Assembly: GCA_021772955.1 (NCBI GenBank)
Contig: JAJFKZ010000013.1
Coordinates: 1-33,601 of the forward strand
DNA length: 33,601 nt
Source of the DNA: Gammaproteobacteria bacterium
GTDB lineage: Bacteria; Pseudomonadota; Gammaproteobacteria; Xanthomonadales; Wenzhouxiangellaceae
Direction: 5' to 3'
This document shows, piece after piece, positions 16,668-33,601 of the stretch (position 1 is its first letter; the number at the start of each line of letters is the position of its first letter). The notes beneath the pieces were generated by a model. That model was not told where the DNA came from. It was given only the letters and a program-made list of their open reading frames with translations, and searched no databases. The translations under genes and the position numbers were made by a program.

Positions 16668-18032
16668 TTGAACTCCATCAGCACGCAAATCTATCCCGCC
16701 GGTATTCTCAACACTTTGTCCCAGCAAGAGGTCGCACGTCTTGCCGACGCGAGTCAGGGCAAGCTCAACGAGCGCCTGCGTCGATGCGTACTGGCCGTGC
16801 TCAACAGTGGCAACCCGACTGACGATGCTGATCAGGTGCTGGAGCAATTCCAGCACTTTCAGGTACAGGTGATTCCGGTCAATCGTGGTATCCGTCTGGA
16901 TATCCACAATGCGCCGGCCTCGGCCTTTGTCGATGGCAAGATCATTCGCGGTATTCGTGAGTTGATGTCGGCAGTGATTCGCGATCTGATTTATTTTCAC
17001 ACCGAGATAGAAGGCAATCCGAACAATGACCTGCAGGACAGCAGCGGCATTACCAACGCGGTATTTGAAATTCTGCGTAATGCCAATGCATTTCGCCCAG
17101 AGGCTGACCCGGATGTCGTGGTTTGCTGGGGCGGTCACTCGATTTCCGGTAGCGAATACGACTACAGCAAGGAAGTAGGCTATCAGTTAGGGCTACGGTG
17201 CATGAACATCTGCACCGGTTGTGGCGCTGGTGCCATGAAAGGGCCGATGAAGGGGGCGACCATCGCACATGCCAAGCAACGCACTTTACCAGGTCGTTAT
17301 CTGGGCCTGTCCGAGCCAGGGATCATTGCTGTGGAGTCTCCCAATCCGATCGTCAATGAACTGGTGATCCTGCCGGACATCGAGAAACGGCTTGAAGCAT
17401 TCGTGCGCACCGGCCACGCTGTGCTGGTGTTTCCGGGCGGTGCCGGTACCGCAGAGGAAATCCTGTTCTTGCTGGGGGTGTTGTTGCATCCCGACAATCA
17501 GGGAAATCCAATGCCGGTGGTGTTCACTGGTCCGGAATCCGCCCGTGATTATTTTGCCCACATTGATCGCTTCCTGAGTTTTGCGATTGGCCCGGAAGTG
17601 CGTGAGAAATACCGCATTGTCATAGACGATCCGGTGACCGTGGCACGATTGATGGTCGAGGGCATGGAACAGGTCAAGGACTATCGAACGAAACGCAATG
17701 ATGCCTATTATTTCAACTGGTTGCTGACCATACCGGAATCGCTGCAACAGCGCTTCAAACCCACGCATGCAAACATGAACAGCCTGGATTTGCGGCTTGA
17801 CCGGCCCAAGCATGAACTGATCAGAGACTTGCGAAGGGCGTTCTCGGGTATCGTCTCGGGCAATATCAAACCCGATGGCGTTGCCGCAATCAGAGCCGAG
17901 GGGCCGTTTCAGATACGCGGCGACCAGCAATTGATGAGTGCGGTGGATGAATTGCTGACGGCATTCAACCAGCAGCAGCGAATGAAACTGCCGGGTAGCG
18001 TGTATGAGCCGTGCTATCGAATTGTGTCTTGA
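16668..18032 (+). CDS. ppnN: Pyrimidine/purine nucleotide 5'-monophosphate nucleosidase (LOG family)
   Basis: PpnN (YgdH) splits nucleoside monophosphates into base and ribose 5-phosphate, and in E. coli is activated by (p)ppGpp. The 454-residue product matches E. coli PpnN over its whole length. The N-terminal domain has FVDGKIIRGIRELMSAVIRD. The Rossmann core has VVCWGGHSISGSEYDY and NICTGCGAGAMKGPMKGA. The LOG motif PGGAGTAEE lies at residues 256-264. The C-terminal domain ends RMKLPGSVYEPCYRI, almost identical to E. coli. The start is TTG 16668, chosen because no in-frame ATG fits and it gives the family length; no clear ribosome binding site precedes it. A mobile element begins 3 bases after the stop codon. 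Confidence 0.96.
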   Translation: MNSISTQIYPAGILNTLSQQEVARLADASQGKLNERLRRCVLAVLNSGNPTDDADQVLEQFQHFQVQVIPVNRGIRLDIHNAPASAFVDGKIIRGIRELMSAVIRDLIYFHTEIEGNPNNDLQDSSGITNAVFEILRNANAFRPEADPDVVVCWGGHSISGSEYDYSKEVGYQLGLRCMNICTGCGAGAMKGPMKGATIAHAKQRTLPGRYLGLSEPGIIAVESPNPIVNELVILPDIEKRLEAFVRTGHAVLVFPGGAGTAEEILFLLGVLLHPDNQGNPMPVVFTGPESARDYFAHIDRFLSFAIGPEVREKYRIVIDDPVTVARLMVEGMEQVKDYRTKRNDAYYFNWLLTIPESLQQRFKPTHANMNSLDLRLDRPKHELIRDLRRAFSGIVSGNIKPDGVAAIRAEGPFQIRGDQQLMSAVDELLTAFNQQQRMKLPGSVYEPCYRIVS

Positions 18033-18035
18033 GTC

Positions 18036-18200
18036 TAGCCCGTATATTTCATGAAGGCGGACAGTTGCTGGTCACATTATACGGATAAACAAGGCGATAA
18101 CAGTGAAATTAGGCTTAGTGGAGTGGCTACGGTTTGCCCTGTTCGAGTTCAGGCCAAATCTGGCGTTGCACCTCGAACCCTTCATGCAATAGGCGGACTA
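18036..18200 (+). mobile_element. MITE-like element, type 2 (165 bp)
   Basis: The element runs from TAGCCCGTATATTTCATGAA to a right end whose reverse complement is TAGTCCGCCTATTGCATGAA. These are terminal inverted repeats of about 22 bp bounded by TA. The ends resemble those of the type 1 elements in this window, but the interior is unrelated. The interior holds the inverted repeat GTTCGAG/CTCGAAC (18141-18147 with 18172-18178) around GCCAAATCTGGC (18153-18164). There is no transposase ORF. It starts 3 bases after the ppnN stop and shares its right-hand TA with the abutting type 1 element. Confidence 0.7.
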
Positions 18201-18444
18201 GCCCGTATATTGCACGAGGACGGACGTTCAGGTAAGAAAAGCGTATGCACACCAACAAGTTATAACGAAATTGATCGAAATTGCAAAAGTACAGTTTGTC
18301 CTATTCGGTTTTAGGAAAAATCTGTCGTCGTATTTTGGCACATCCTCCTTGAACCTTAGCCAGCTATGGCTCTGCGGACGATGCACCAAACTACTTTGGC
18401 AGATTTCCCCTAAAACCCGAATCCCTCATGCAATATGCGGGCTA
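18199..18444 (-). mobile_element. MITE-like element, type 1, full-length copy (246 bp)
   Basis: Read on the minus strand it starts TAGCCCGCATATTGCATGAG. It ends with the near-perfect inverse of that (TAGCCCGTATATTGCACGAG read from the other side), giving TIRs of about 21 bp bounded by TA. Inside, ATTCGG...AAATCTGCC and GGCAGATTT-like arms flank a core that is itself an imperfect palindrome with AGCCA/TGGCT at its centre. The rest is a unique segment of about 85 bp. It is nearly identical to the copies at 32480 and 33458. It has no ORF of its own and must be moved in trans, if it is mobile. It lies between the convergent genes ppnN and the minus-strand gene at 18534. Confidence 0.8.
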
Positions 18445-18495
18445 GCAGCCTGTGGGACTGAACGCTGATCTACTGCGGAAAAACAGCCTATAGTC

Positions 18496-30689: not shown

Positions 30690-31082
30690 ATGCCAGTGAA
30701 AAAATTCATCAGCAGCCAATCGCAATACGAGGAAATGGCCAGTTACTCGCGCGCTGTGGTGGTCGGTGATGAAGTGTTGGTGTCTGGTACCACCGGCTTC
30801 GATTATCGGACCATGCAGATTGCCGAGACTGCCGCAGACCAGACCGAGCAGTGCTTCATCAATATTGCCGCAGCCTTGCAGCAGGCCGGTTGCAGTCTCG
30901 ACGATGTGGTCAGGGTGCGCTACATTGTTGCTGAGCGAGATGATTTCGAGCAGTGTCTGCCGGTGATCCGTCGCTACATGCAAAGTGCCAGACCGGCTGC
31001 CACGATGCTGGTGGCCGGTTTGCTGGATAAGCGCATGAAGATCGAAATCGAAGTTACTGCAAGGCACGGCTGTAGCGCATGA
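30690..31082 (+). CDS. Rid (YjgF/YER057c/UK114) family protein
   Basis: The 130-residue product has the Rid fold pattern: SRAVVVGDEVLVSGTTGFDY, QTEQCFINIAAALQQAGCSLDDVVRVRYIV, ARPAATMLVAGLLDKRMKIEIEVTA. Canonical RidA hydrolyses reactive 2-aminoacrylate and related imines, using an arginine in its VARLP motif (Arg105). Aligned on the shared KIEIE strand, this protein has GLLD there and no arginine, so it probably belongs to another Rid subfamily with unproven activity. It lies 107 bases after trpA and overlaps the next gene by 4 bases (ATGA). No clear ribosome binding site precedes ATG 30690. Confidence 0.9.
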   Translation: MPVKKFISSQSQYEEMASYSRAVVVGDEVLVSGTTGFDYRTMQIAETAADQTEQCFINIAAALQQAGCSLDDVVRVRYIVAERDDFEQCLPVIRRYMQSARPAATMLVAGLLDKRMKIEIEVTARHGCSA

Positions 31083-32482
31083 CTGATCCGCACTCACAAT
31101 CTGAAAATACGAATAGCAACAGCGGCTTGCAACGGCTGCGAGACCGCACCGACGAGCTGGAGCTGATCATCTCCAGCCTGACCATCTTCGCGCTGTTTTC
31201 ACTGCCGGGCTGGCTGTTTGAAAGTTTTGCCAACAGCTACACGCACCTGTCGCTGGCGCTGATTGTCGGCGGTAACCTGGGCATGACCATCATCACCGGT
31301 TTGAGTTATGTGCTGGGCAGCTGTTTTGTGCTGCATCTGCTGGTGCGCGCCTACTGGGTCGGCTTGATCGGTTTGCGCACAGTGTTTCCGCACGGGATCA
31401 ACTGGCAGCGCACACCCGGTATCGGACCGATAACCCGCGCGCACTACCAGCGCGAGCTGCCGAATCTGGAGCAGACCATACAGCGTGCTGATCGCATTGC
31501 TTCGTCACTGTTTGCGCTGATCAGTCTGTTGACCCTGGCGATCCTGTGGGTGGGCTTGTTGCTGGCGCTGATGCTGGCCATTGCCGGTCAGGTCGGTGCC
31601 CAGTTCGGATTGACCAACAGGTTTATCGTCATCACGACGCTGGTTATGGTCGGTATACTGGCGGGATTACCGGCATTGTTGTGGTTGCTGGATAGCGTGC
31701 TCGGCACGCGCTTGCCGGGCTTGCAGCGCAGCGCTGGTTTTCGAGCCCTGATTCGCAGCCTGACTGCCTGTATCGGACTGATTTATCCACAACGGTTGAT
31801 CTTGCCGGTGCAATTGACCCTGCAGAGCAACACCCATCCGCGCATGTTCATACTGCTCCTGTTTTTGGGCGTGGTTGCCATCGTATTTATCGGCAATTTT
31901 CGCGTGACCGGCTGGACAGATTTCACCTTGTCCGGAGAGTTTCATTACCTTGGTGATGAGGCCTTGCGGCAAGACTTTCACAGTGCTCACTATGAAGCCT
32001 GGCGCACGGACAAGGACAAGCTGCGTGCCTGGCCGATGATTCCTGCATTCGAGCAATCCGGGGCATTTGTCCAGTTGTTCCTGCCCTACCAACCGTTGCG
32101 CGACAATCTGCTGCTGAAACAGGTTTGTGCGCAGGGGCCGGATCTGCCAGCCAGCGCGGACTGCCTGCAACAAATATGGTCAGTCCGTTTGAACGATCAG
32201 GACGTTGCCATGGCGCAGTTTATTCCGGCTGAACGAGGCGATCTGCGCATGCGCGGTCTGCTGGGCCTGGTTCCGGCGTCTGGACTTCAGCCTGGCTTGC
32301 AGGAACTGGTGGTCACCTGGGATCCTTCCGGCTTTACCGATGACTTGTCACTGGATGATCGCTACGCAAATCTTAACACCGAGGCTCACATCCCATTTGC
32401 TTTCAATCCAGCCTACGAACTGTCGCTGCCGGAAGTACAGATTGACGACCCAGCACCGCAGTTGCACACAGAGGTTCCCTAG
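31079..32482 (+). CDS. Multi-pass membrane protein of unknown function
   Basis: I do not recognise the family. The 467-residue product has hydrophobic segments at about residues 28-50, 57-92 (possibly two helices), 143-170, 182-208 and 258-276. A soluble, probably extracytoplasmic, C-terminal region of about 190 residues follows, containing two cysteines (KQVCAQG and ASADCLQQ). The N-terminal 27 residues are polar. It overlaps the Rid gene by 4 bases, so the two are translationally coupled and may share a process. The stop codon TAG (32480-32482) is formed by the first three bases of an inserted mobile element. Removing the element with one TA would give TAA at the same codon, so the protein end is unchanged. 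Confidence 0.8.
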   Translation: MTDPHSQSENTNSNSGLQRLRDRTDELELIISSLTIFALFSLPGWLFESFANSYTHLSLALIVGGNLGMTIITGLSYVLGSCFVLHLLVRAYWVGLIGLRTVFPHGINWQRTPGIGPITRAHYQRELPNLEQTIQRADRIASSLFALISLLTLAILWVGLLLALMLAIAGQVGAQFGLTNRFIVITTLVMVGILAGLPALLWLLDSVLGTRLPGLQRSAGFRALIRSLTACIGLIYPQRLILPVQLTLQSNTHPRMFILLLFLGVVAIVFIGNFRVTGWTDFTLSGEFHYLGDEALRQDFHSAHYEAWRTDKDKLRAWPMIPAFEQSGAFVQLFLPYQPLRDNLLLKQVCAQGPDLPASADCLQQIWSVRLNDQDVAMAQFIPAERGDLRMRGLLGLVPASGLQPGLQELVVTWDPSGFTDDLSLDDRYANLNTEAHIPFAFNPAYELSLPEVQIDDPAPQLHTEVP

Positions 32483-32664
32483 CCCGCATATTGCATGAGG
32501 GATTCGGATTTTAGGGGAAATCTGCCAAACTACGACGGCAGATTTTTCCTAACACCGAATAGGACAAACTGTACTTTTTCAATTTCGATCAATTTCGTTA
32601 TAACTTATTGGTGTGCGTACGCTTTTCTTACCTGAACGTCCGTCCTCGTGCAATATGCGGGCTA
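32480..32664 (+). mobile_element. MITE-like element, type 1, internally deleted copy (185 bp)
   Basis: Terminal inverted repeats of about 21 bp (TAGCCCGCATATTGCATGAG and its near-perfect inverse ending GCAATATGCGGGCTA) bound an element nearly identical to 18199-18444 but 61 bp shorter. The missing piece is exactly the interval between two TGCCAAA repeats in the full copies. As a result the inner arms (32502-32526 and 32537-32560, about 24 bp, few mismatches) now close on a 10-base loop, giving a strong hairpin followed by GGCAGATTTTTCC. The element supplies the stop codon of the upstream membrane-protein gene. Confidence 0.82.
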
Positions 32665-32770
32665 AACTACACAGGTCAGGTCAGCCTGAATGGCGGCCTG
32701 GCATGATGATTTGTATGATCTTGACCAGACCCGCATGCCGTCAGCTGCTGCACTGACTGAGAGATTGACC

Positions 32771-33426: not shown

Positions 33427-33457
33427 GGTGATCTCCTGCCGCATTTATTGTTGTTGC

Positions 33458-33601
33458 TAGCCCGCATATTGCATGAGGGATTCGGATTTTAGGGGAAATC
33501 TGCCAAAGTAGTTTGGTGCATCGTCCGCAGAGCCATAGCTGGCTAAGGTTCAAGGAGGATGTGCCAAAATACGACGGCAGATTTTTCCTAACACCGAATA
33601 G
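33458..33601 (+). mobile_element. MITE-like element, type 1, cut by window end
   Basis: The element starts TAGCCCGCATATTGCATGAG at 33458 and follows the full-length type 1 sequence, including the 61-bp core missing from the 32480 copy (TGCCAAA at 33501 and again at 33562). The inner hairpin arms are 33480-33504 and 33576-33599. By comparison with the 246-bp copy, about 102 bp should continue beyond the window. Its orientation is the same as the 32480 copy. Confidence 0.8.

Follow-up and report, generated by a model that had tools for sequence, protein, structure and literature searches.

We found the repeated sequence at positions 18198-18445 to be, as certainly as sequence can make it, a MITE, and we read it as a non-autonomous element of 240 bp that an IS1380-family transposase probably (about 0.88) moves in trans, a partnership that we regard as strongly supported, not proven. 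The reading draws on the ends of the element, the duplication of a YTAR target, its dispersed copies, orthologous regions that lack it, and IS1380 elements that match it in both ends and targets. The window, the whole stretch of DNA analysed, is a complete contig of 33,601 nt (C25) from a genome assembly of 2.63 Mb in 176 contigs that is 88% complete and in which many contigs break at repeats.

With both CTAG flanks the element measures 248 bp and has the layout CTAG-[240 bp CCCG...CGGG]-CTAG. Its core occupies 18202-18441 on the plus strand, as delimited by the sequence, the genome copies and comparison with their consensus, and lies between a left (18198-18201) and a right (18442-18445) target duplication CTAG, both defined by sequence and flank statistics. 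The sequence, the copies and a scan for the end pattern agree on terminal inverted repeats of 13 bp, with the consensus CCCGNATATTKCA at both ends; the left one reads CCCGTATATTGCA (18202-18214, plus strand) and the right one CCCGCATATTGCA (18429-18441, minus strand). Cross-genus comparison divides the interior into a left arm that differs between genera (18223-18287, plus strand) and a conserved right module (18288-18445, plus strand; the 159-position model R1), which consists of a TACAGTTTGTCC box, a long hairpin and the right end. Within the module, covariation places the inner inverted repeat at 18303-18422 (plus strand), and alignment places the hairpin tip, CTTAGC-CA-GCTATG, at 18354-18369 (plus strand). 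Folding of this copy exceeds that of its own shuffles by far (z of -6.2 as DNA and -8.5 as RNA), and it contains no ORF that reaches 90 aa, as in a short element that has no transposase of its own.

Sequence and comparison with the consensus place two more copies in the window, both on the minus strand and thus opposite in orientation: a shortened one at 32479-32665, from which 62 bp of the hairpin tip are missing, and one at 33457-33601 that ends at the contig end and equals the consensus over its own length. All three copies, the inverted ends, the inner repeat with its palindromic tip and the lack of an ORF had been pointed out in the earlier note, and all were borne out. In the window, the copies occupy gaps between convergent genes or the 3' end of a gene. 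The insertion at 32479-32482 sits at the 3' end of the ORF 31079-32482, where its CTAG provides the TAG stop; the corresponding protein of a relative from the same genus (G001) stops at a similar place. As YTAR targets hold TAG or TAA, insertion at stop codons may therefore be harmless.

Further elements adjoin the copy at 18198-18445. On its left lies a second, different multi-copy MITE whose ends are of the same kind (core of 159 bp at 18039-18197, plus strand; whole stretch 18035-18201), which abuts the element with the CTAG at 18198-18201 in common and to which stretches at some ten other places in the genome are related. On its right, sequence comparison revealed a fragment of a third MITE family (18446-18482, plus strand; ends CAGCCTGTSGGACTT), again at a CTAG. 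This family, of about 160 bp with ends CAGCCTGTSGGACTTRAC and CTAG flanks, abuts the first one and also occurs at L033 1518-1677 and L012 1750-1909.

Counting copies across the genome, we obtained about 40 separate places that match the element, the full copies at 89-97% identity and many copies at contig ends, and the end pattern CTAGCCCGNATATTNCA had 56 exact matches compared to none for the reversed control. Upon comparing the four bases before CCCG with the four after CGGG in the 22 full-length copies with both flanks, we found agreement in 14 of them, where shuffling predicts 6.5 (p=0.0003). The agreeing flanks are direct repeats (CTAA/CTAA, TTAG/TTAG), while membership in the inverted repeat would set CTAA against TTAG; the duplicated target is therefore the 4-bp YTAR (CTAG, CTAA or TTAG) and not TA, as had been proposed from the window. 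A MITE of the IS630/mariner type, with a 2-bp TA duplication, is ruled out by these same repeats. The copies differ by 1.3-8.8% from their consensus (most by 1-4%, the extremes by 9%) and by 6.5% from one another in the pairwise mean. Hence, with most copies at 1-4% from the consensus, the element underwent a fairly recent burst that includes older members and is not current. The earlier suggestion of recent activity from near-identical copies thus holds for the burst and fails for present activity, the identity being only moderate.

The copies have the marks of insertions. Their flanks are mostly unrelated and their ends sharp at YTAR, with two small sets of duplicated flanks as the exception. 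Copies on contigs C10, C62 and C163 (L004, L009 and L012) have one flank in common at 97-98% and the other not, as recombination between MITE copies or the joint binning of two strains would produce; in its left flank, some 40 bp from the element, L009 also holds a REP-like palindrome, GTAGGCCGGATAAGCGCAGCGCATCCGGCA. The gene that precedes the element in the window (16668-18032) has orthologues in relatives, and in three of these, G001 (protein 88% identical), G004 and G008, it is followed by a short spacer without any of the MITEs. That spacer has diverged in all three, and the comparison resolves the region, the exact junction not being recovered. Of the two outcomes named beforehand as arguing against transposition, conserved flanks were encountered only in the two small sets, and a lack of empty sites in relatives is countered by these orthologous regions without the element. 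That the copies could be segmental duplications or artefacts of assembly is suggested by the many contigs that end within a copy and by the few copies with one flank in common, yet against the unrelated flanks and sharp ends of most copies, and the orthologous regions without the element, we give this next to no credence.

The earlier note had left the partner unassigned; searching for a transposase element with the same ends, we arrived at IS1380 from two directions. A scan for the end pattern, with one genome per species, returned at least 115 stretches, which by record name came, among the matches listed, from Gammaproteobacteria, Betaproteobacteria, Deltaproteobacteria, Nitrospirae, Verrucomicrobia, Planctomycetes, Hydrogenedentota and others. 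Between such ends lay full-length elements of 1589-1635 bp with one long ORF each (L140, L084 and L133; L140 as two tandem copies with 4 bp in common), so that the end pattern alone retrieved three kinds of IS1380 element. PF13701 identified the IS1380 transposase in L140 (E=3e-170) and L084 (E=3e-166), and NF033539 matched L140 as well (E=1e-126). Wherever an end-pattern locus among the matches listed held an IS1380 transposase (nine of nine), it stood 4-178 bp from an end. The reverse search, starting from the transposase family within the same order, yielded IS1380 elements of 1.63-1.74 kb with such ends, namely L187, with 1687 bp and TTAG on both sides, and L263, L266, L267 and L278. Identity among five of the IS1380 transposases was 53-63%. 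The ends of L140, L084, L133 and L187 are the same as those of the MITE, and those of L263, L266, L267 and L278 closely similar with small differences. Overall, other genomes, one of which belongs to the same order, hold full-length IS1380 elements of 1.6-1.7 kb that have these ends and lie at YTAR sites.

In the element's own 88%-complete assembly, with its many contigs broken at repeats, no intact transposase of IS1380 bounded by these ends was found, and the L084 transposase as query had no match there. An IS1380 transposase of a different subgroup survives there as a C-terminal remnant (L061 1451-1929), directly followed by a related end, TTAACCCAATTGTTGCA. IS1380 scored above the cut-off in 6 of 34 relatives that carry the conserved module versus 2 of 46 others, a weak enrichment only. 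A plasmid search with the element gave no match, and viral contigs held the end pattern in only six stretches. No homology was detected between the interior of the MITE and those of the IS1380 elements; only the ends align, over about 20 bp, so that the MITE did not arise by simple deletion within the IS elements seen. YTAR-like targets are also a property of IS5-group elements and of IS701, and the partner might come from such a family. As both search directions linked the ends to IS1380 elements, and DDE_Tnp_1 transposases have no match in the own genome at E<=0.001, we judge another family to be very improbable.

For a partner from the IS1380 family, which is related to piggyBac, we propose that the transposase would bind the 13-bp ends CCCGNATATTKCA and cut, and that insertion of the element at YTAR, in most cases CTAG, would double these four bases. 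Such a CTAG could then serve as a target again, which would account for MITEs that abut at one CTAG. With less confidence, we suggest that the inner hairpin may be kept since a cruciform or single-strand hairpin of the DNA helps the element, either by bringing its ends together or by protecting a single-stranded stage.

We found the hairpin itself to be real and conserved. The element's right 159 bp recur in other genera, with the left arm variable, and in 10 such sequences 21 of the 37 modelled hairpin pairs had changed on both sides, a count that none of 500 shuffles reached; sliding the partner by one base reduced the pairing from 92% to below 40%. Using a covariance model, with scoring at no more than nine places per genome, we searched 299 genomes of the order and detected the module in 35, across 11 genera and five families, at a near-constant length (157-161 bp in nearly all full matches). 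Whole elements of 240-251 bp with both ends occur in other genera, as does one 186-bp variant (L261). A model-free alignment of 36 sequences again showed changes on both sides to dominate over one-sided ones, and the compensatory changes were almost all Watson-Crick. G-T made up 2% of paired cells, with 23 instances versus 97 expected under independence of the columns, about a quarter. A-C on the plus strand, equivalent to G-U on the minus strand, was about twice as frequent as G-T (46 instances), an excess that stems from few columns common to whole clades. By comparison, 13 tRNAs of the same loci had 5% G-U and no A-C. When folded as RNA, the minus strand reached -107.6 kcal/mol versus -91.8 kcal/mol for the plus strand.

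Stretches of 60-420 bp bounded by the same ends, 57 in the at least 115 loci, form a wider set, with lengths that cluster at 183-188 bp (19 stretches) and 245-265 bp and interiors with a median fold z-score of -3.5. In the 183-188 bp class (which includes L128, L094, L173, L166, L125, L142, L065, L171, L121, L073, L103, L120, L079, L115, L168 and L153), 17 sequences were chosen for having such ends and put into one orientation by eye; when then aligned, they match from end to end and have boxes in common inside each end. The subterminal boxes of this class read CTGCTGCGACC and CTCGCGACGA. Its hosts span four phyla (Deltaproteobacteria/Desulfobacterota, Gammaproteobacteria, Hydrogenedentota and Verrucomicrobia), a pattern that rests on many placements, as many hosts are metagenome bins and any single one could be wrong. 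In the stem of this class, 21 of 33 pairs had changed on both sides (none of 500 shuffles). Beyond the end, scores between the 159-bp module and this 183-188 bp class were low.

What maintains the hairpin can be read in several ways, among which we hold selection on DNA folding and template switching to be about equally likely, and RNA less so. At heart, the element could be a structured RNA, regulatory or serving as the 3'-end element of an mRNA, which uses MITE ends to spread and is selected as a transcript: the compensatory changes, the location of the window copies between convergent genes or at a gene 3' end, the better-folded minus strand and the surplus of A-C over G-T would all fit. 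Yet G-T is much rarer than independent columns would give, the tRNAs of the same loci show G-U and no A-C, and the A-C surplus traces to few clade-wide columns; we set this strand asymmetry aside as proof of RNA, since few independent events underlie it. An Rfam search of the window at the gathering threshold returned tRNA only, with no curated family for the element, and no promoter- or terminator-like site was found near it, both of which count against a selected transcript. Taken together, the rarity of G-T and the clade-shared A-C favour pairing in DNA over a plus-strand RNA; a minus-strand RNA is possible, and we consider selection on an RNA unlikely overall. Alternatively, the hairpin may be unselected, with template switching at replication repeatedly copying one arm onto the other, which would yield Watson-Crick changes on both sides without intermediates and would rival the hairpin part of our reading, not the MITE part. 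Strand switching is known to act on long quasi-palindromes, one-sided changes are far fewer than those on both sides, and the shortened copy at 32479 has lost its hairpin tip. This account has a substantial chance of being right, if less than an even one; unpaired positions of the internal loops are fixed across genera, uncorrected, and the lengths of the module and, across phyla, of the 183-188 bp class are kept. The element might even belong to a very widespread, IS1380-tied superfamily of non-autonomous elements whose members in several phyla have fixed sizes (about 184-186 and 245-265 bp) and whose DNA hairpin, no by-product of IS decay, is selected and functions in cis in transposition, an extension that we offer tentatively and consider rather unlikely.

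The assignment of a partner makes mobilisation of the element testable, and its conserved hairpin offers a clean example in which to ask if transposition makes use of DNA folding within a bacterial MITE, with the covariation naming the pairs to break and restore. IS1380-family IS elements (PF13701, NF033539) share with the MITE the 13-bp ends and YTAR targets, but the MITE lacks a transposase gene and has only the roughly 20 bp of end in common with them. The available portions of the literature that we searched on IS1380 and MITEs contained no IS1380-driven MITE and no description of this element, and the exact end sequences gave only unrelated matches in the literature. Correia/NEMIS, ERIC and RUP elements duplicate TA, unlike the present element with its YTAR. 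By description (PMC3733652), they resemble it as palindromic MITEs dispersed between genes, and GTAG- or CGTC-tagged REP/BIME sequences resemble it as palindromic repeats of several phyla. REP/BIME, as portrayed there, are however 20-40 bp long, carry a tetranucleotide tag and are tied to IS200/IS605-like transposases; the length of 240 bp, the 13-bp ends and the 4-bp target duplication, a feature that REP/BIME lack, rule out the element as one of them. Among bacterial mobile elements, MITEs have received the least study according to PMC10969869, which also describes Chunjie of Geobacter uraniireducens, a MITE of 235 bp with variants of 178-235 bp and about 38 copies with ends. Chunjie is like our element in size, copy number, mostly intergenic location and ends with direct repeats, a likeness by description only (PMC10969869), and may or may not be in the same group. 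MITEPye1 of Paracoccus yeei, as given in PMC11578231, is likewise non-autonomous, with ends, direct repeats, a long stem-loop and an IS family assigned by its ends, but differs in being assigned to IS1182 and in having 1-3 copies per chromosome.
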